Source: Desulfamplus magnetovallimortis (GTDB lineage Bacteria; Desulfobacterota; Desulfobacteria; Desulfobacterales; Desulfobacteraceae). Taken from it: a stretch of 40,092 nucleotides of DNA. Position numbers and translations under genes: made by a program. Shown piece by piece: positions 15,397 to 31,313 of the stretch (its first letter is position 1; each line of letters starts with the position of its first letter). The notes under the pieces were generated by a model. That model saw only the letters and a program-made list of their open reading frames with translations. It made no database searches and was not told the DNA's origin. Location: the NCBI RefSeq assembly GCF_900170035.1, contig NZ_LT828546.1, positions 234,694 through 274,785 on the forward strand, written 5' to 3'.

Positions 15397-18300
15397 TTAT
15401 ATCATCAGATGAATTTCACGATACAAAGCATCAAGTCTTGCCGGCGATATCTTGATAGATGTTTTAATCTCCTGGGCAAAAAGGGATATTTTGTACTCTT
15501 CAAGCATCCAGAAAAATTTTTCAACAGCATCTGCTTTCTCCCGTGAAGAGTCGTTATCAAGCTCATTGAGCATGGCAGAAAGTTTGTCCGAATAGTCAGA
15601 AAGAGCTGCTGCTTTTTTCTGATCCCTTGTCATGTCAACATCTGCCCGCTGGACACGGATCCTTATGGCGGCAATGTATCTTTCAAGAAGCTCAATGCGT
15701 TCATGGGTATAAATATCAAGGAAATCAGCCGGCATCAGTGATTCAAGGTCTTTTTGCAACTGCTCTGAAAGGGCATAAAGCTGTGGTCGTTTTCTGCTTT
15801 TAAGATTTATGTTTCTCAAAACAGAAGCTGTCTCTTCATATGACTCACAAAGATTTGTCACCCAGCTTATAAGGATCTGGCCTGTGGAATAAAGCTCTGG
15901 CAAGGCTTTACCTGCATGTTTCTCAAACGAATTCCTGTCCCTTATATCCACAGAGAAAAGCTGCCTTGTCACTGATCTGAACATGGCATTATTGAGGTTC
16001 TCGGCTCCACCAAAAAAAGAGGCATATCTTTTAAGACGCGAAGCACCTTTTATATCCTTTTTAAGGGCATTGAAATCCTTTTCATAACAGATTGTAAAAA
16101 GGACTCTTACTCCTTCCATGTGGGATTCAACGGCACTGTTTCTGTTCTTAAACAGACGAAGAGAGACCACGCCATTTTCAACAGTAAAGGCTGGAAAGAG
16201 AGTTAATCTTTTTTCAGAAGCAGCAGTCCGGTTACCGGAATCACCAGAAACATTGGCAAAATCAACATTAGAAGCGGAAAAATCCGCAGCAGCATTAGCA
16301 AAATCAGCTCCAGAAGCGGAAAAATCCGCAGCAAAACCGGAAGCTCCGGCATCGTCAGATAAAGCAACAACATCTCCAGATTCTTTGAAAGTCACAGAAT
16401 CTTTGATCTCTCCAAGACTCCAATCCCGAATATTTTCCTTTTCATAGCGTTTTCTTGCCTCTTCAAATGCATCTTCACCGGAAAAAGTGACGTTGGAAAA
16501 ATCATTTAATACGCTCCTGTTTCTTGATGCTGCAATCTCATGATCATTTTCATCACGAATGGATATACGCATTTTTAAATGATCTTCAACACTTTTCTCT
16601 GACCAGGCAGATGGCGGAATCTGTGCTCCAAACCTTTTTCTTACAAAAAAGCTGAGTTCATTAAACAGGGGGCGTCCATTATATGATAGCTCTTTTGCAA
16701 TTATGTCTGCCTTTTCCGATGCAGGAAGCAGCTTGACTCTGTGGGATTTGGGAAGACTTTTAATCAGAGCTGTGATCTTTTCCCTGAAAAGTCCAGGGAT
16801 TCCCCACTCCAAAGCCTGTGGATCTGCAGAAGCTGCTGCAACAGCCGGTATTTTAACTGTTACGCCATCCTTTTCCGCTCCAGGTTCAAAACCGTACTCC
16901 AGATGAAATGCAAGTGTGCCCATCTCAATTTTATCCGGAAAACCTTCAAGATCAATATCATCCATGGATTTTTGTTGAAGATCATCAAGCGTCATGAATA
17001 GAAAATTCTTATCCTTCTCCTTTATCGCCCTGTTTTTAATATATTTTGCAAAGGTTCTGATGTTAAAAAAATCACGGTCAATGTTTTTTCTATAAAAAAG
17101 ATAGATATCATCATCTGTTACAAGTATATCGCGCTTCCTGGTCTTATCCTCAATATCCTGAAGCTCGGCTATGAGCTTCTGGTTGTGCAGCATAAAGGGA
17201 AAGGGTCTTGCCACTTCACCTTCAACCAGAGCTTTTCTTATGAAAATTTCACCTGCCTCGGCAGGATTGACCCTGCCATATGAGACAGTTCTTTCCGGTA
17301 CAATTACAAGGCCAAACAAGGAGACCTGCTCTGATGCAACAACTTCCCCCCTTTTTTTCTCCCAGCGCGGGGATGACCAGGTAAATGTGCAAAGTTCCCT
17401 GCCAAGCTCCTCAAGCCAACCAGGATCAATTGTGGCTGCGGTTCTTGCAAACAACTGGGAGGTTTCCACATATTCAGCAGCCACAATCCAGTTACCGGCC
17501 TTGCCGAAAATCCCTGAACCCGGAAAAATCATGGCCTTCTGCCCCTTGGCAGCATGATAAATATTTTTATCTTTTTTATGGGCAATATTCCCAAGATATC
17601 CGCAAAGCAATGATTTGTGAAGCTCGGTATAAAATTGCCCACCAATCTCAAACTCCTTTGACTTCAACCCCTTGGTGCCGGATTCAATGTTTATGCGCCT
17701 CTCACCTTTGACACCATGCTCCCTTAATACAGAAAGTATCTGTCCATGTATATCGTTCCACTCCCTGAGGCGCTTAAAAGATAAAAAATGTTCCTGGCAG
17801 AATTTTCTCACCTGACTCCGGCTTTTGAGTCGCTTTTGTGCGCTGTGATACGCTTTCCATATATTAACAAGGGAGATAAAATCCGATGCAGGATCTTTAA
17901 AAAGTGCGTGTTTCTGATCTGCCTGCTGGGTCTTGTCCTGGGGTCGCTGCCTTGGATCAGATATGGAAAGGGCAGAAGCTATGACTGCTGCCTCTTCAAG
18001 GCATCCTCTCTCATCAGCTTCTATAAGAATCCTTGAAAGTTTGGGGTCAACAGGGATTCCTGCCATTATGCGGCCATTATCTGTCAGAACATATTCCCTG
18101 GAGCTTCGTTTTTTTTCAGCAGATGCTCTTTTTTCAACTTTAATGGCACCAAGCTCAAAAAGAGTTTCAAAGCCATCCTTTACAGATTTTGAAGATGGTG
18201 CATCAATAAATGGAAAAGATGCCACATCGCCAAGTTTCAGGGATATCATCCGCAAAATAACCTCTGCAAGGTTACTTCTCAAAATTTCAGGAGAGGTGAA

Positions 18301-19431
18301 AAGGGGTCTTGATGCATAATCATCCTCGTCAAACAGCCGGATACAGATTCCATTTGCAACCCTTCCGCATCTTCCCTTTCTCTGATCTGCACTGCTTCTC
18401 GATATGGGGGTAACCGGCAAAGCGGTTGTGCGGGTTCTTGGTGAGTAGTGGGGTATCCTTGCAAATCCAGTATCAACTACATATTTGATACCTGGAATGG
18501 TCAGTGAAGTCTCTGCAACATTGGTTGAAACAATTATCTTTCTGCCTGGCCCCCTGTGAAAAATTCTCCCCTGTTCACCTGCTGAAAGCCTTGCATAAAG
18601 CGGCAAAACAGTTACCCCTACATAGCGTCTGCCCCTTAAAATTTCAATTGTCTCTGTGATATCCTGCTCTGTTGGCATGAAAATGAGGATATCTCCATAA
18701 CGGGACTCCTTCTGAATCATCTCCACAGCATCGGCTGCGGCCTCCACATAACCCTGGTCGTCCTGCTCCGGATCATCTGACCCCTGAACCGGCATATAAC
18801 GTACTTCCACAGGATACATACGTCCAGATACCTCTATAATAGGTGCATCATCAAATGCCCTTGAAAATTTTTCAGTATCAATTGTGGCAGAAGTGATAAC
18901 CAGGGTCAAATCCCTGCGTTTCCTGACAAGGTTTCTCAAAATTCCCAGTGTAAAATCAATGTTAAGGCTTCTTTCATGGGCTTCATCAACAATGATGGTA
19001 TCATATTCCCGCAGAAGAGCATCTCTTTGGGTCTCTGCCAGCAGAATACCGTCTGTCATAACCTTTATGATTGAATCAGATGCTGTCTTATCATCAAAAC
19101 GGATTTTATAGCCCACTGACTTTCCAAGGGGCTCTTCCAGCTCCTCTGCAATTCTTGAGGCAACATTAATGGCAGCTATTCTTCGTGGCTGGGTACAGCC
19201 TATGGTGCCTTTAACCCCTCTGCCTGCTGCAATGCAAAATTTGGGAATCTGAGTGGTTTTACCGGAGCCTGTTTCACCGGACACAATAACAACCCTGTGT
19301 TTTTTCAGGGCATCTATAATCTCATCTTTTTTATCAGTAATGGGTAACTCTTTAATAAAAGAGATCTTTGGCATGGCCTTCTGCCTTACCACCCTTTTAC
19401 TGACTTTCATTTCTCTTGCTCTATTTTTCAT
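15397..19431 (-). CDS. hrpA: ATP-dependent RNA helicase HrpA (DEAH family)
   Basis: The product is about 1344 residues, close to the usual length of HrpA. It shows motif I GETGSGKTTQIPKF, motif II DEAHERS, motif III TSATID, the second RecA fold with TNVAETSLTIPGIKYVVDTG and motif VI QRKGRCGRVANG, then the helicase-associated domains and a long C-terminal DUF3418-like region. It should unwind structured RNA or rescue stalled ribosomes, as known for HrpA. An in-frame TTG exists at 19482; the ATG at 19431 was chosen but has no clear ribosome site, and ATGs at 19410 and 19374 remain possible. Near residues 1030-1060 the C-terminal region holds a low-complexity stretch with two near-identical 14-residue units (ADFSAS, DFAN), absent from typical HrpA. 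The gene stands alone. Confidence 0.95.
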   Translation of the reverse strand: MKNRAREMKVSKRVVRQKAMPKISFIKELPITDKKDEIIDALKKHRVVIVSGETGSGKTTQIPKFCIAAGRGVKGTIGCTQPRRIAAINVASRIAEELEEPLGKSVGYKIRFDDKTASDSIIKVMTDGILLAETQRDALLREYDTIIVDEAHERSLNIDFTLGILRNLVRKRRDLTLVITSATIDTEKFSRAFDDAPIIEVSGRMYPVEVRYMPVQGSDDPEQDDQGYVEAAADAVEMIQKESRYGDILIFMPTEQDITETIEILRGRRYVGVTVLPLYARLSAGEQGRIFHRGPGRKIIVSTNVAETSLTIPGIKYVVDTGFARIPHYSPRTRTTALPVTPISRSSADQRKGRCGRVANGICIRLFDEDDYASRPLFTSPEILRSNLAEVILRMISLKLGDVASFPFIDAPSSKSVKDGFETLFELGAIKVEKRASAEKKRSSREYVLTDNGRIMAGIPVDPKLSRILIEADERGCLEEAAVIASALSISDPRQRPQDKTQQADQKHALFKDPASDFISLVNIWKAYHSAQKRLKSRSQVRKFCQEHFLSFKRLREWNDIHGQILSVLREHGVKGERRINIESGTKGLKSKEFEIGGQFYTELHKSLLCGYLGNIAHKKDKNIYHAAKGQKAMIFPGSGIFGKAGNWIVAAEYVETSQLFARTAATIDPGWLEELGRELCTFTWSSPRWEKKRGEVVASEQVSLFGLVIVPERTVSYGRVNPAEAGEIFIRKALVEGEVARPFPFMLHNQKLIAELQDIEDKTRKRDILVTDDDIYLFYRKNIDRDFFNIRTFAKYIKNRAIKEKDKNFLFMTLDDLQQKSMDDIDLEGFPDKIEMGTLAFHLEYGFEPGAEKDGVTVKIPAVAAASADPQALEWGIPGLFREKITALIKSLPKSHRVKLLPASEKADIIAKELSYNGRPLFNELSFFVRKRFGAQIPPSAWSEKSVEDHLKMRISIRDENDHEIAASRNRSVLNDFSNVTFSGEDAFEEARKRYEKENIRDWSLGEIKDSVTFKESGDVVALSDDAGASGFAADFSASGADFANAAADFSASNVDFANVSGDSGNRTAASEKRLTLFPAFTVENGVVSLRLFKNRNSAVESHMEGVRVLFTICYEKDFNALKKDIKGASRLKRYASFFGGAENLNNAMFRSVTRQLFSVDIRDRNSFEKHAGKALPELYSTGQILISWVTNLCESYEETASVLRNINLKSRKRPQLYALSEQLQKDLESLMPADFLDIYTHERIELLERYIAAIRIRVQRADVDMTRDQKKAAALSDYSDKLSAMLNELDNDSSREKADAVEKFFWMLEEYKISLFAQEIKTSIKISPARLDALYREIHLMI
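16255..16338. repeat. Two-copy 42-bp in-frame tandem repeat inside hrpA
   Basis: Two consecutive 42-base units share gcaaaatca, agaagcggaaaaatccgcag and a following gca. They encode 14-residue repeats rich in Ala, Ser, Asp and Phe. Because the unit is a multiple of three, the frame is kept. Confidence 0.75.
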
Positions 19432-19723
19432 AAGGTGGATTTTATTATATTGTAGATAAAAGTCAACTCCATGAATTCCCAAGAGTCATAATCTTCCCAA
19501 TTTTTATAACTTCTCATATGAGTCATCTCTTCTCAATTGTGATGCAAAATGAAGTTCGACAAAATTTATTAATCTATTGCTAATAATAAGTTGACTTATT
19601 GCTAATAATAGGTGAAATATAGGCTGTTATGAGTAATTGCTTTTCCATTACTGAACATGCAGTAAGTCAGGGCTTAACCCATTTATGATTATAACAGACT
19701 TAAATTATTATTATAATGATATG

Positions 19724-19785: not shown

Positions 19786-19899
19786 ACGACTTTCATTGTT
19801 TCGATTGTGGCGGTGAGATGCCATGTACCTTACATGAAAGTCGCCAAGATTACTAAAAAGGAATGGCTTGATGTGAGATGCCATGTACCTTACATGAAA
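19786..19899 (+). repeat. R5 repeat plus exact 27-bp duplication in the leader
   Basis: The R5 part (19786-19830) starts acgactttcat and contains tcgattgtggcggt and gccatgtac; it matches 34271-34315 in reverse. A 27-base segment, from gtgagatgccatgt to cttacatgaaa, occurs at 19813-19839 and again, identically, at 19873-19899, exactly 60 bases apart. In addition cgactttcat (19787-19796) is mirrored by atgaaagtcg (19834-19843), so the leader RNA can fold. The second copy ends about 27 bases before the start codon. Confidence 0.75.
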
Positions 19900-19926: not shown

Positions 19927-21246
19927 ATGGGTGAAGCAGTAATTAAAATTGGAAAAAAACGCAAAAGTTTTTTCAAAGACAAGGTTATGGCCCTTCTGCC
20001 TGACGGTGGAAACCTCAATGCCTGCCTGACATGTGGTGCCTGCGCGTCAGGATGTCCAGCAACCGGACTTGAGGGCATGGATCCCAGAAAATTTCTGAGA
20101 ATGGCAGCACTTGGAATGGATGAGGAGATTCTTACCAGCAACTGGGTCTGGATGTGCTCAATGTGCCAAAGATGCGTATATGTATGTCCCATGGAGATAA
20201 ATATTCCCCAACTTGTTTACAATGCAAGGGCACAATGGCCAAGGGAAACCCGTCCAAAGGGAATACTTGGATCATGCGATGCTGCACTTTCCAATGAATC
20301 AGGAAGTGCCATGGGTACTCCCATGGAAGATTTTGAATTTGTAGTGGGCGATGTCCTTGAAGAGTACAGGGAAGCCCAGCCGGAATTTGAAGAGATGGAA
20401 GCCCCCATTGACAAAGAAGGGGCAGAATTTGTTCTGAACCAGAATTCCCGTGAACCTGTAACCGAACCTGATGAACTTGTTCCCTTATGGAAAATACTCC
20501 ATCTTGTGGGTGCAAACTGGACTTACACCAGCAAGGGATGGGCAGGAGAAAACTACTGCATGTTCCTTTCTGATGACAAGTCATGGGAGCATCTGACACG
20601 CCAAAGTGTTGATGCAGCCCATAACGTGGGGTGCAAGACGTTTCTCAACACCGAGTGAGGGCACGTAACATTCTCAGTCCTGGCAGGACTGAAAAAATTC
20701 AACATTGAGCACAATTTTGAAGTTAAAAATATCTATGAGTATTATGCAAAATGGATAAGGGAAGGAAAACTTAAGGTAAACTCCGACTGGAACAAGGATC
20801 TGAAAATAAAATTTACGGTTCAAGACCCTTGTCAGATTGTGAGAAAATCCTATGGAGATGCAATTGCAGATGATCTTCGATTTGTAGTTAAATCAGTTGT
20901 TGGTGAAGAGAACTTCATTGACATGACCCCAAATAAATCAAACAACTTCTGCTGCGGCGGCGGTGGCGGTTTTCTCCAGTCAGGATTCAAAGAAGAGCGC
21001 CTGCTTTACGGCAAGATCAAGGATGACCAGATCAGAGCCACAAAGGCAGATTACTGCATTGCCGGGTGTCATAACTGCCATGCACAGATCCATGAACTCA
21101 GCGAACACTACGGTGGAAATTACCCTGTGGTACACCTCTGGACACTGATATGTCTTTCCCTTGGAATCCTTGGTCCAAATGAAAGGGAGTATCTCGGGGA
21201 TGACCTGAAAGAAGTGAATGTATTTCACCCTGAGACAGCCATGTAG
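19927..21246 (+). CDS. Selenocysteine-containing HdrD/HmcF/TmcB-like iron-sulfur protein, paralogue 1 (UGA = Sec244)
   Basis: Read through the in-frame TGA at 20656-20658, this is one 439-residue protein. Residues 1-120 carry two ferredoxin-type [4Fe-4S] motifs, CLTCGACASGCP and CSMCQRCVYVCP. Two CCG-type domains follow, as in HdrD, HmcF and TmcB. The second is complete: DPC, then NFCCGGGGGF and CHNC. In the first, the family usually has ECGH; here it reads E-UGA-GH, so selenocysteine replaces the cysteine. The frame is open on both sides of the UGA, the downstream half has conserved family motifs and no start of its own, and a hairpin follows 16 bases later. Such proteins pass electrons or reduce disulfides, usually with a membrane or flavin partner; none is encoded nearby. 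AAGGAG precedes the ATG. Annotation as two fragments or a pseudogene would be wrong unless the UGA is not decoded. The exact subfamily is uncertain. Confidence 0.88.
20656..20691 (+). promoter_or_regulatory. UGA codon and bacterial SECIS-like hairpin, paralogue 1
   Basis: After the TGA (20656-20658) and 16 bases, cagtcc and ggactg pair as a 6-bp stem (20675-20691) around the 5-base loop tggca. The loop begins 22 bases after the UGA and has G at its second position, which fits the general bacterial SECIS description as I know it. The element lies within the coding sequence. Confidence 0.75.
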
Positions 21247-21311
21247 CAGCAGAGACATAACTTCTGTTTTCTCCGTTTTTTGGGCACCTTCATATTATAC
21301 AGAATTTTTTG

Positions 21312-21361
21312 GGCATCCTTCATATCATATAGAAAGTGTAAACTGGCAAATGAAAGATGCC
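21312..21361. repeat. R2 element, compact copy
   Basis: Fifty bases running from ggcatccttcat to atgaaagatgcc, with gaaagtgtaaac inside. It appears to be the two R2 ends joined with little between them. A partial copy (gggcaccttcatattat) lies just upstream. Confidence 0.7.
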
Positions 21362-21446
21362 GTTTTTTGCCTGTAATATTACCCTGTTTTATAAATTTCG
21401 GTGCCTGTAATATTACTCTGTTTTCTACATTTTGGTGCCTGTAATA

Positions 21447-21484
21447 AAACCCATTTCAGATGATTATTCTGAAACGGGTTTTTT
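21447..21484 (+). terminator. Rho-independent terminator after paralogue 1
   Basis: AAACCCATTTCAG and CTGAAACGGGTTT form a stem of 13 positions with one mismatch around a loop of about eight bases, ending in a run of T. It lies about 200 bases after the stop of the first gene and before the second, so the two paralogues are probably transcribed separately, at least in part. Confidence 0.8.
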
Positions 21485-21704: not shown

Positions 21705-23024
21705 ATGGGTGAAGCAGCAATAAAAATTGCAAAAAAACATAAAAGTGTTTTTAAAGACAAGGTTATGGAAATTCTGCCTGACGGCGGCAACCTCAATGCC
21801 TGTCTTACATGCGGGGCATGTGCATCCGGATGTCCAGCCACAGGACTTGAAGGCATGGATCCCAGAAAATTTCTGAGAATGGCAGCACTTGGCATGGATG
21901 AAGAGATACTCAGTACAAACTGGGTCTGGATGTGCTCAATGTGCCAAAGATGTATCTATGTCTGCCCAATGCAGATCAATATTCCCCAGCTTGTATATCA
22001 TGCCAGAAAATCATGGGCAAGGGATGACAAGCCCAAGGGAATTCTGGGTTCATGTGACATGGCTCTTAGAAATGATACATGCAGTGCAATGGGTGCCACT
22101 GAAGAGGATTTTGAGTTTGTTGTAACCGATGTACTTGAAGAGTACAGGGAGGCACAACCGGAATTTGCTGAAATGACAGCCGATGTCAACCGTGAAGGCG
22201 CCTATTATGTTCTCAATCAGAACTCAAGGGAACCTGTCACAGAACCTGATGAGATGGTACCTCTCTGGAAAATTCTCCACCTTGCCGGTGCTGACTGGAC
22301 ATACAGCTCAAAAGGCTTTGCTGCAGAGAACTACTGCATGTTCATGGCAGAAGATGAATCCTGGGAAAAAATTGTAAGAACCAAGGCCAAGGCTGTGGAT
22401 GATCTTGGGGCCAAGGTGTGGCTCAACACCGAGTGAGGGCACGAACTATTTGCAGTCCTGGCAGGACTGAAAAAATTCAACATTGAGCATAAATTTGAAA
22501 TCATGAGTATTATCCAGCTATACGCAAAATGGATACGTGAAGGTAAACTTAAACCAAGTTCAGAATGGAACAGGGAAAGAAAGATCAAATTCACTGTACA
22601 GGATCCATGCCAGCTTGTAAGAAAAACCCTTGGCGACCCTGTGGCTGAAGATCTTAGATATGTTGTAAAAGCTGTTGTTGGAGAGGAAAATTTTATTGAC
22701 ATGACTCCCAACAAATCCAACAACTTCTGCTGCGGTGGCGGTGGTGGTTTTCTACAGTCAGGCTTTCCTGATGCAAGACGAGCCTACGGCAAGACCAAGG
22801 CAAACCAGATACTTGCAACCAAGGCACAGTACTGCATTACACCATGCCATAACTGTCATGCACAGGTTCATGACCTAAGTGACGTTCACGATCACGCATG
22901 GCAGACTGTTCATCTGTGGACACTTCTTTGTCTCTCCCTTGGGATTCTCGGCCCCAATGAACGGGAATACCTTGGTGATGACCTTAAAGAAGTTGATGTT
23001 TTTCATCCTGAATCAGCCATGTAA
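21705..23024 (+). CDS. Selenocysteine-containing HdrD/HmcF/TmcB-like iron-sulfur protein, paralogue 2 (UGA = Sec244)
   Basis: Read through the TGA at 22434-22436, this gives 439 residues, the same length as paralogue 1, with the UGA at the same codon, 244. The proteins are roughly three quarters identical by eye. Conserved features are CLTCGACASGCP, CSMCQRCIYVCP, E-UGA-GH in the first CCG-type domain, and DPC, NFCCGGGGGF and CHNC in the second. The frame extends 20 codons upstream to 21645, but the ATG at 21705 has ggagg before it and aligns with the start of paralogue 1. It has its own leader, palindrome and probably promoter, so the copies may be expressed under different conditions. The role is expected to be electron transfer or thiol/disulfide chemistry with an unidentified partner. 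The duplication argues that the UGA is functional rather than a recent nonsense mutation. Confidence 0.88.
22434..22469 (+). promoter_or_regulatory. UGA codon and SECIS-like hairpin, paralogue 2
   Basis: The hairpin cagtcc-tggca-ggactg (22453-22469) starts 16 bases after the UGA (22434-22436), the same spacing and the same 17 bases as in paralogue 1, although the 13 bases just before it differ between the genes. That pattern suggests selection on the RNA structure. Confidence 0.75.
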
Positions 23025-29465: not shown

Positions 29466-31313
29466 CTAAAATCCTGGCAGTCCGCTAAAGCCTCTGAATA
29501 CCCAGTAAACTCCAGTAAGCAGAATCAGAATAATATTGGCGATAAAAAACACTGGTATCCCAACCCTTAAAAAATCCTTTGGCTCAAGATATCCGCTGGC
29601 ATATACAATTGCATTGGGAGGCGTGCCGATAATAAGGCAATATGCAAATGAAGATGCAATTGCTGTGGACATTGCCATAAAGGGTAGAAAAGTTGTGCCG
29701 GGATGCACAAGCCCTGCCATGTTTAGGGTAATTGGGCCAACTGCTGCTGCTGCAGGGCCGTCTGCCATAAGGTTGGTCAAAAGTGCGGTAAGTCCATTGC
29801 TGACAACCATAAGCTTTATACCTGCATCCATTCCAAGTGGTGCAAGAAAATCAATAACTGTTCTGGCAAGCCAGTAAGCAGCTCCGGTGTCATCAAGTAC
29901 CCGCCCGAAAATAATTGCTCCGGCATAGAGCCATACAACACCCCAGTCCACCTTTTCCTGGTAATCCCTCCAGTTGACGACACCTGCCAGGATATAGGCC
30001 ACAGCACCAGCCACAGCAAGCACTCCAATACCTGTACGAATGGGGTAAATACCCAAATCATAAAAGGCTTTTTCCGTAAACCATCCAAAAACCATGATAA
30101 TAAAGATGATAAGTGCCCATATCTGATGTCTGTTCCATCCACCCATCCTGTCAATTTCAGCTTTTAACTGATCCATTGCAGGAGCAAGGGATACAATTCT
30201 TGGCTTAAATCTGATATTGGTCATAAACCAAGTAACCGGAATCATGATAAAGAGGAATGGAAAACAGTAGGTAACCCACTGGAAATATCCGATATCAAAC
30301 CCGAACATATCTGCAAGATAGGTCATCATTATAACGTTTCTGGCACCACCTGAAGGGGCACCTGGACCTCCTATATTACAGGCCATTGCAATGGCAATCA
30401 TCAAAAGCTTTGCAAGCTCCTTGTCTTCGGGAATATCATTTGTCAGGCTGTTCTGATACAAAAGCATACCAATGGGTAGAAACATTGCAGCAAGTGCATG
30501 GTCGGATATAAATGCTGCTAAGGGAGTTATTATGAGGAAGAAAATAAGAGTAATCCACTTTACATTGGGAACAGCAAGTTTTTTGAACATCATAAGACAA
30601 ACCCTTTTATCAACCCCTGTCTTGACAAAAGCTGCCGCAAACATAAGACTTCCCATGATAAACCAGCATGCATCGCTCCAGTAGAGCATTGCAACATCGT
30701 TTCTTGATACAACACCTGTGAACACAAGAATAAGACCTATACAAAAAGCAACAGCAGGAAGGGGGATACATTCGGTTAGAAAACAGAGTACAACAAAAAC
30801 CCCCATTGCAACGGCAACCTTTATGTGCCAACCGCCCTTGTCTGCTGTTTTCTTGTCTTTTTCCGAAAGTTCCTCATATTTAAGGCCGGTTTTTCTCAGT
30901 TCCAACCCCTTCTGCATCATGGTGAGAAACTCTTCTTCAGATACTGATGCATCAATATATTCACGAGCCTTGTCAAAATTTTTCTGATCTGTCTCTATTC
31001 CATATTTTTTGCACCATTTAATGTCCCGCTTGAGAAACCTTGGTTTCTTCAAAGCACCGATCTGTATGCTCTGTTCCATCATTTTTGCTGCAACAAGCTG
31101 CCACTGTTCAGCGTCAGAGCTGCTCTTATTGAAAAGTGCCTTTGTAAAATGGTTAATTACAGCTTTTGGTGCAACCGTATATTCCATTCCCACATCCTTC
31201 ATCCCATAGGGAGTGGGAATAACAAGTACAACAAAAAAGAGTACCACCGGAACAATAAAGACCTTCCAGTCAACATATTTATCGTAGCCTGTAATTTTTT
31301 TGTTTTTTTTCAT
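29466..31313 (-). CDS. SLC13/DASS-type sodium-anion symporter, atypical
   Basis: This 615-residue inner-membrane transporter has about a dozen hydrophobic segments. After a first segment (about 17-36) it carries an unusual soluble stretch of about 125 residues before the second (about 168-190). The late motif IGTPPNAIVYASGY is a hallmark of divalent anion:sodium symporters. The positions where well-studied members have the substrate and sodium SNT motifs read SDHALAAMFLP and MADGPAAAAVGP here, and the first GTPPN-like loop reads GGPGAPSGGARN, so ion or substrate handling may differ. Members move dicarboxylates, citrate, tartrate or sulfate; both dicarboxylate and sulfate would make sense in a sulfate reducer. 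AGGAG precedes the ATG at 31313. It sits between a lone receiver and small membrane proteins. Confidence 0.88.
   Translation of the reverse strand: MKKNKKITGYDKYVDWKVFIVPVVLFFVVLVIPTPYGMKDVGMEYTVAPKAVINHFTKALFNKSSSDAEQWQLVAAKMMEQSIQIGALKKPRFLKRDIKWCKKYGIETDQKNFDKAREYIDASVSEEEFLTMMQKGLELRKTGLKYEELSEKDKKTADKGGWHIKVAVAMGVFVVLCFLTECIPLPAVAFCIGLILVFTGVVSRNDVAMLYWSDACWFIMGSLMFAAAFVKTGVDKRVCLMMFKKLAVPNVKWITLIFFLIITPLAAFISDHALAAMFLPIGMLLYQNSLTNDIPEDKELAKLLMIAIAMACNIGGPGAPSGGARNVIMMTYLADMFGFDIGYFQWVTYCFPFLFIMIPVTWFMTNIRFKPRIVSLAPAMDQLKAEIDRMGGWNRHQIWALIIFIIMVFGWFTEKAFYDLGIYPIRTGIGVLAVAGAVAYILAGVVNWRDYQEKVDWGVVWLYAGAIIFGRVLDDTGAAYWLARTVIDFLAPLGMDAGIKLMVVSNGLTALLTNLMADGPAAAAVGPITLNMAGLVHPGTTFLPFMAMSTAIASSFAYCLIIGTPPNAIVYASGYLEPKDFLRVGIPVFFIANIILILLTGVYWVFRGFSGLPGF

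Follow-up and report, generated by a model that had tools for sequence, protein, structure and literature searches.

The locus raised the question of whether a TGA in the middle of an otherwise open iron-sulfur protein gene is a stop or a selenocysteine (Sec) codon, and what the resulting protein might do. In the window (the whole stretch of DNA analysed, 40,092 nucleotides), the gene, here called copy A, was delimited at positions 19927–21246 of the forward strand using the open reading frame, Pfam, NCBIfam, and alignment. The reread frame ran from ATG to TAG over 439 codons, and its sole break was the TGA at codon 244 (20656–20658, forward strand, placed by the frame and by paralogue and homologue alignments), which bore out the single interrupted frame described in an earlier note on this DNA. 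Under the standard code, the gene was split into 19927–20658 and 20839–21246. Read through, it would encode a 439-aa selenoprotein of the HdrC+HdrB fusion type, with two [4Fe-4S] motifs, a degenerate first CCG domain carrying E-Sec-G-H, and a complete second CCG domain; the motif around Sec was NTE-U-GHVTF. A tandem paralogue, copy B, absent from the earlier note, was found at 21705–23024 of the same strand. It also encoded 439 aa, was 75% identical to copy A, and had its UGA at codon 244 as well (22434–22436, forward strand, from the frame and the paralogue alignment). Both copies were thus broken at the UGA under the standard code.

The identity of residue 244 was compared among homologues, for which 180 full frames were reduced to 145 by dropping identical sequences and lengths outside 380–520 aa. 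Of the 144 non-redundant homologues besides the A/B pair, 132 carried Sec (TGA) at residue 244 and the other 12 carried Cys, one of the latter in the same genome; nothing else was found there. The flanking residues were almost invariant (E243 144/144, H246 144/144, and G245 143/144, with Ala once). The earlier proposal that Sec stands in the position of the Cys of an ECGH motif was supported by this exchange. The Sec machinery, which the earlier note had named as a check, was present in full: the matches to selA, selB, and selD were all above the curated cut-offs, the selD match itself containing a TGA, and the tRNA-Sec, with anticodon tca, scored 76.6 bits against a gathering score of 47. Furthermore, dN between copies A and B was 0.176 before the UGA and 0.174 after it, and dN/dS was 0.137 and 0.091, respectively. 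Since dN/dS was as low after the UGA as before, the downstream part is under the same constraint.

Related genes were common at larger distances. At the class level, at least 230 of 291 genomes had a match at E ≤ 1e-90, among the matches listed. At the phylum level, 63 of 247 genomes matched the protein of the paralogue on contig C5 of the same genome at E ≤ 1e-60, and 50 of 198 matched the Cys protein on contig C2; one TGA was also present in many phylum-level matches of 35–43% identity. The window was scanned for frames interrupted by TGA with at least 80 codons before it and at least 60 after it, and five were obtained, those at 20656 and 22434 being copies A and B. The other three, at 30985, 37763, and 38383, were antisense to longer frames. 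A chance open frame was ruled out for copy A by the existence of copy B, by the TGA in 132/144 homologues, and by the constraint after the UGA.

A SECIS-like hairpin with a 7-pair stem and a GGC loop, also absent from the earlier note, was located at 20675–20691 (forward strand), 19–35 nt after the U of the UGA. The 17 bases were identical in copy B (22453–22469, forward strand), and the assignment was made by covariation and pair counts. The position of the hairpin directly 3′ of the UGA in both copies fits the bacterial SECIS consensus. All six core pairs were formed in 114 of 124 distinct Sec genes (A and B included) but in none of the 12 Cys genes; these sets were drawn from a first alignment, and every stretch listed from it had TGA or TGC at the expected codon. 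Over 70 distinct rows, paired cells made up 96.3% compared with 85.4% in shuffles, and the covariation was 0.351, against 0.160 for shuffles and no more than 0.126 for slid stems. RNAalifold recovered the same stem unprompted. Two of the five covariation measures were no better than in shuffles: changes on both sides were seen in four of the seven pairs, which was matched by 88/500 shuffles, and the number of further pair types was reached by 205/500; these two counts add nothing because the shuffles often reach them. Single-sequence folding was weak, being as good in 8/200 shuffles for copy A and in 23/200 for copy B. In the window, no Rfam family matched at gathering scores and no tRNA was detected by ARAGORN. 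In addition, dS between the copies was 0.175 in codons 245–262 (only 18 codons), compared with 1.29 before the UGA and 1.93 in the whole downstream part, and the hairpin lies in this low-dS stretch. The residue at the eighth codon after Sec (Leu, Arg, or Gln) tracked the base pair closing the loop, and the RNA therefore seems to dictate part of the protein.

The possibility that the UGA is a real stop, so that the gene is a pseudogene, an assembly error, or the source of a truncated 243-aa HdrC-like product, accords with the split of copy A under the standard code. However, the same-codon TGA in 132/144 homologues and in both window copies, the purifying selection past the UGA, the conserved hairpin, and the full Sec machinery make a stop very improbable. 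Decoding as another amino acid, by Trp insertion or a suppressor, was even harder to credit: nothing was found in its favour, the position was always TGA or Cys in the 144 homologues, and a tRNA-Sec with anticodon tca was present. UGA244 is probably read as Sec through the downstream hairpin and the SelA, SelB, SelD, and tRNA-Sec of the genome, and the two genes of the window are, as far as their sequence tells, selenoproteins.

The genome contained four genes of this type (EUGH genes): copies A and B, a third one on C5 with TGA at the codon equivalent to 244 (60% identical), and a fourth one on C2 with Cys at the equivalent position (67% identical), the last two also being missing from the earlier note. 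Distant paralogues on C1 and C22 (33% identity) carried Cys in ECGH. Copies A and B fell in two separate groups of the tree, each with Sec relatives in other genera, indicating that the pair is an old duplication. The same tandem pair was found in a Desulfamplus MAG (L056). At least seven Sec/Cys changes were counted, with the Cys forms nested in Sec groups, in a quick tree of 70 rows whose root was uncertain. One copy-A-type gene of another genome (L142 in G169, 87% identity) had Cys for Sec and lacked an intact hairpin; G169 also had a TGA form near hrpA, and the Cys form of L142 is perhaps a recent Sec/Cys change. The Cys paralogue on C2 (L050:2841-8124) had a HesB/IscA-like gene in its vicinity, as well as a hydrogenase pair of the NiFe(Se) type.

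The HdrC-like part of copy A (20023–20187, forward strand) had eight Cys residues (33, 36, 39, 43, 77, 80, 83, and 87) for two cubane [4Fe-4S] clusters, and the second CCG domain (residues 297–388; 20815–21090, forward strand) had the noncubane motif C302, C342-C343, C381, and C384. These last residues belong to the DPC (C302), NFCCGGGGGF (C342, C343), and CHNC (C381, C384) segments, which were present after the TGA as the earlier note had read them. Pfam gave a Fer4_8 4Fe-4S dicluster domain at residues 30–91 and a single CCG match at 297–388. The eight cubane-cluster and five noncubane-cluster Cys residues were invariant in 144/144 homologues. Trp198-Thr199 was invariant in the stretch where HdrB has its Cys pair (HdrB placement by eye), and Cys211, a possible second thiol, was absent in 9/144. 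The residue after His246 was Val, Glu, Ala, Ile, or Ser in 134/144 homologues. The closest solved relatives by sequence in the PDB were HdrC, HdrB, and EtfD. An AlphaFold2 model built with 47 sequences had a mean pLDDT of 87.0, and its top Foldseek match was HdrB (5odc_B, E 4.5e-06).

In the profile alignment, E-C/U-G-H paired with T-C581-P-H583 of EtfD (9ojn_A). According to the available part of the EtfD paper (PMC13083937), the two residues serve different clusters: Cys581 binds the linear one in the first CCG domain, and His583 completes the noncubane one in the second. Sec244 was two residues from His246, the equivalent of the EtfD His that reaches the neighbouring cluster. The first CCG domain is degenerate: its other ligands seem to be gone, and Sec/Cys244 and His246 are kept, so that a first-domain cluster for Sec244 to bind is probably lacking. 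The more likely site of action of Sec is therefore the second-domain noncubane cluster, on it or next to it, or else a substrate. In EtfD, the counterpart of His246 closes the noncubane cluster, which would argue for plain electron transfer over catalysis there. The earlier statement that Sec would specifically alter first-domain redox chemistry was not supported, because it presumes a cluster there; the Pfam CCG match covers residues 297–388 only.

The identity with HdrD or HmcF given in the earlier note was reduced to a resemblance. Like TmcB, HmcF, and DsrK, the protein combines Fer4 and CCG domains, and the distant paralogues of the genome have the ECGH (Cys) form. The three assignments were rejected, as the NCBIfam scores were far under the cut-offs (HmcF, 157.8 vs. 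750; TmcB, 162.9 vs. 735; DsrK, 114.5 vs. 400). The two cubane motifs of HdrD and HdrCB proteins, with their eight Cys, were found in 144/144 homologues; only the second noncubane CCG motif was complete, and the protein was regarded as HdrCB-like in layout and was not filed as HdrD. It was similar to HdrB plus HdrC of HdrABC-MvhAGD (5odc) in the fold and sequence of both parts and in the five-Cys second-domain motif. However, HdrB of 5odc has two noncubane clusters, whereas the first motif of the EUGH proteins is reduced to one Sec/Cys. EtfD (9ojn) likewise has Fer4 and two CCG domains, with C-x-H aligned to U-G-H, but, from the available part of PMC13083937, it is membrane-bound, and its first domain carries a linear [3Fe-4S] cluster whose ligands are missing in EUGH proteins. 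The EtfD type does not fit, since only the C581 and H583 equivalents remain, the C503 and C538 positions being placed by eye.

Selenoproteins of this kind have been listed before. In the available part of PMC1794560, "Fe-S oxidoreductase (GlpC)" is one of the selenoprotein families catalogued in 2006; it comprises 5 members and has an operon glpC-hdrA-frhD-frhG-frhA. The count of 2016 was 47 selenoproteins in 31 organisms (PMC5029168, in the text available), and the motif is UGH in Table 1 of a 2026 review (PMC13188914, available portion). The window genes encode Fer4+CCG proteins in which an in-frame UGA yields U-G-H, and the Sec/Cys homologue pairs, the SECIS-like hairpin past the UGA, and the Sec machinery were all found; like the GlpC/UGH family, they represent a deltaproteobacterial Fe-S oxidoreductase with Sec in U-G-H whose type occurs near HdrA and FrhD/MvhD genes. 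By motif, protein description, and taxon, on which alone the assignment is made, they belong to this published family, here in duplicate, and their kind is not new. The published GlpC operons are hydrogenase-linked, whereas the family is seen here in the company of MetV/MetF, and its two Sec copies in the window are tandem orphans. In addition, the 2009 genome paper of Desulfobacterium autotrophicum HRM2 (PMC2702500, available part) names HdrD4 among the selenoproteins; by its description, HdrD4 is a similar soluble HdrC+HdrB-type selenoprotein of a sulfate reducer.

The neighbours of EUGH genes were surveyed in 80 loci, the best 80 of 531 confirmed, which lean to close relatives. The counts are lower bounds, with 5 kb on both sides in 35/80 loci and short flanks kept, and some counted neighbours were on the opposite strand (e.g., L107, L108, and L123). 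Among these best 80 of 531, HdrA flanked the EUGH gene in at least 37 loci, and MetF or MetV in at least 24. The gene orders in relatives were HdrA-MvhD-EUGH-MetV-MetF and EUGH-MetF-HdrA-MvhD-MetV-MetF, and EUGH was encoded with HdrA, MvhD, MetV, and MetF at loci such as L060, L098, L099, and L109. The same company is found in the MetFV-HdrABC-MvhD and metF-HdrABC systems of Moorella, Sporomusa, and Seep-SRB, the metF gene lying beside HdrABC in the syntrophic sulfate reducers of the last group (PMC9430772 and PMC10553843, available parts). As far as those parts go, these complexes have HdrB and HdrC, unlike the EUGH operons. The string "seleno" occurs 0 times in the Seep-SRB paper (PMC10553843). 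Within the open-licence literature searched, no paper was found that ties the Sec family to MetVF operons, and none on Sec beside a noncubane cluster.

The genome itself had an operon on C5 with the order MetF-EUGH-HdrA-MvhD(Sec)-MetV-MetF. Two further operons for methylene-THF reductase (MTHFR) on C6 were without an EUGH gene: C6a (L232), with MetF-HdrA-MvhD-MetV-MetF, and C6b (L233), with MetV-MetF-HdrA-HdrA/MvhD; a CCG domain search of the whole genome gave no match on C6. Five relatives (L089, L091, L118, L126, and L133) showed MetV-MetF-HdrA-HdrA/MvhD-EUGH, which is the C6b order with EUGH at the end, and their MetV and MetF were 71–75% and 79–80% identical to those of C6b. Because C6a and C6b lack the subunit and the C6b-like relatives have EUGH, copies A and B, the orphans of the window, are reasonable candidates for this subunit.

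The MvhD genes of the C5 (L051:12677-13120) and C6a (L232:10729-11169) operons had an in-frame TGA of the CQYU/CNYU type. FrhD/MvhD proteins are known as selenoproteins with such a TGA, and these two MTHFR operons may be doubly selenium-dependent. A small CGGC-domain protein was encoded just 5′ of the Sec gene in at least 10 of the best 80 of 531 loci (L062, L066, L071, L073, L074, L075, L080, L083, L086, and L110), and is a possible partner in its own sub-group. Moreover, a protein of about 125 aa, whose representative had no Pfam match, followed the Sec gene in at least 13/80 loci (L059, L068, L069, L088, L093, L100, L102, L104, L107, L113, L116, L132, and L135).

Copies A and B were outside any operon with HdrA, MvhD, or MetVF. 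The pair stood alone in the window, with an hrpA-type helicase gene before it on the opposite strand (15397–19482, reverse strand; assigned by Pfam and synteny with relatives) and a histidine kinase gene after it. In 9/12 fetched regions of relatives, hrpA was near the copy-A- or copy-B-type gene, about 3 kb away in L246. Of the three regions without it, L236 and L237 were cut by contig ends, and L242 held a Cys gene. The hrpA gene is a synteny marker and no functional partner of the EUGH pair. Around the 12 A/B-type regions, the sole match to HdrA, MvhD, or MetVF was a MetV-like one in L246; since partner genes are nearly absent there, any partner named for the orphan copies is a guess.

The best overall explanation, to which we give a probability of about 0.6, is that the pair encodes full-length Sec-containing HdrC+HdrB-type fusions with Sec244 at the second-domain cluster and a link to MTHFR. 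It builds on computed features, namely the Sec codon, the hairpin, the machinery, the Sec/Cys exchange, the domain layout, and the operon association in relatives. From these, we infer that both copies would yield full-length, apparently soluble selenoproteins, in which two cubane [4Fe-4S] clusters would connect to a single noncubane [4Fe-4S] cluster located in the C-terminal CCG domain. Its N-terminal counterpart, which would have lost its cluster-ligand set and retained E-Sec-G-H alone, would deliver Sec244 (and His246) to the second-domain cluster. There, Sec might be an interchange selenol or a Se-Fe ligand, and a disulfide-type or MetVF partner would accept or donate the electrons. EUGH proteins would replace HdrBC in HdrA-MvhD-MetV-MetF complexes (Hdr-type methylene-THF reductase), and the orphan copies A and B may provide it in trans for the two MTHFR operons that have no such subunit. 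A fuller version is offered tentatively, with odds below even. In it, Sec244 and His246 of the vestigial CCG domain would form, on the single noncubane [4Fe-4S] cluster, a new selenium-iron-sulfur centre, again as an interchange selenol or a Se-Fe ligand. The HdrCB-like subunit with this centre would belong to a methylene-THF reductase of sulfate reducers that is flavin-bifurcating and depends on selenium, and the orphans would serve those complexes whose operons lack the subunit. If this version is true, it would point to selenol/disulfide chemistry at the redox partner site of Hdr-type MTHFRs; the available part of PMC9430772 leaves the second electron partner of the Hdr-type acetogen enzyme unassigned.

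Sec244 might instead bind, directly through Se, the second-domain noncubane cluster or a site shared with His246, and would then only tune or protect an electron-transfer cluster, without a thiol/disulfide substrate, the protein being a wire between HdrA and MetVF. In EtfD, that cluster has the His of this motif as a ligand (by alignment; PMC13083937, available part), and in the accessible text of PMC9430772 the Sporomusa MTHFR gave no thiol/disulfide partner with glutathione, lipoate, or dihydrolipoate. However, the invariant His246 beside Sec is already a possible ligand, so Sec need not be one, and we consider such a wire rather unlikely. Sec is mostly found at sites of direct chemistry, which also counts against it. 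The window copies could also be no MTHFR subunits at all and work by themselves as disulfide reductases, with DsrC or a small disulfide of low molecular weight as a possible substrate; comparable roles have been suggested for further CCG-domain proteins in sulfate reducers. Consistent with this, the orphans occupy an hrpA-near locus common to relatives (9/12 regions), other sub-groups have other neighbours (the CGGC-domain protein in at least 10/80 and the ~125-aa protein in at least 13/80 of the best 80 of 531 loci), and an interaction with DsrC is predicted for CCG proteins, TmcB and HdrB among them (PMC10553843, available part). But no DsrC-type Pfam match was obtained among the 19 other window frames scanned (smaller frames being outside the scan), and the subunit is missing from two MTHFR operons of the genome, so that this role is doubtful as well. 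Sec probably marks the site of chemistry, which is thereby open to selenium spectroscopy. The placing in HdrA-MvhD-MetV-MetF operons links the selenoprotein family to the Wood-Ljungdahl pathway of sulfate reducers and suggests that the EUGH family serves in an ancient carbon-fixing enzyme complex.

Some minor features surrounded the two genes. A Shine-Dalgarno-like stretch was seen by eye 5′ of the ATG in both copies, and direct repeats with TGCCTGTAATATTAC were seen, also by eye, between copies A and B (window 21300–21460). Upstream of copy A, a 23-nt element with the palindrome CATGTA-CCT-TACATG was found at 19817–19839 and again 60 nt further at 19877–19899 (both forward strand). The genome had no element of this kind beyond these two at up to 3 mismatches, and they are a possible regulatory site of copy A.
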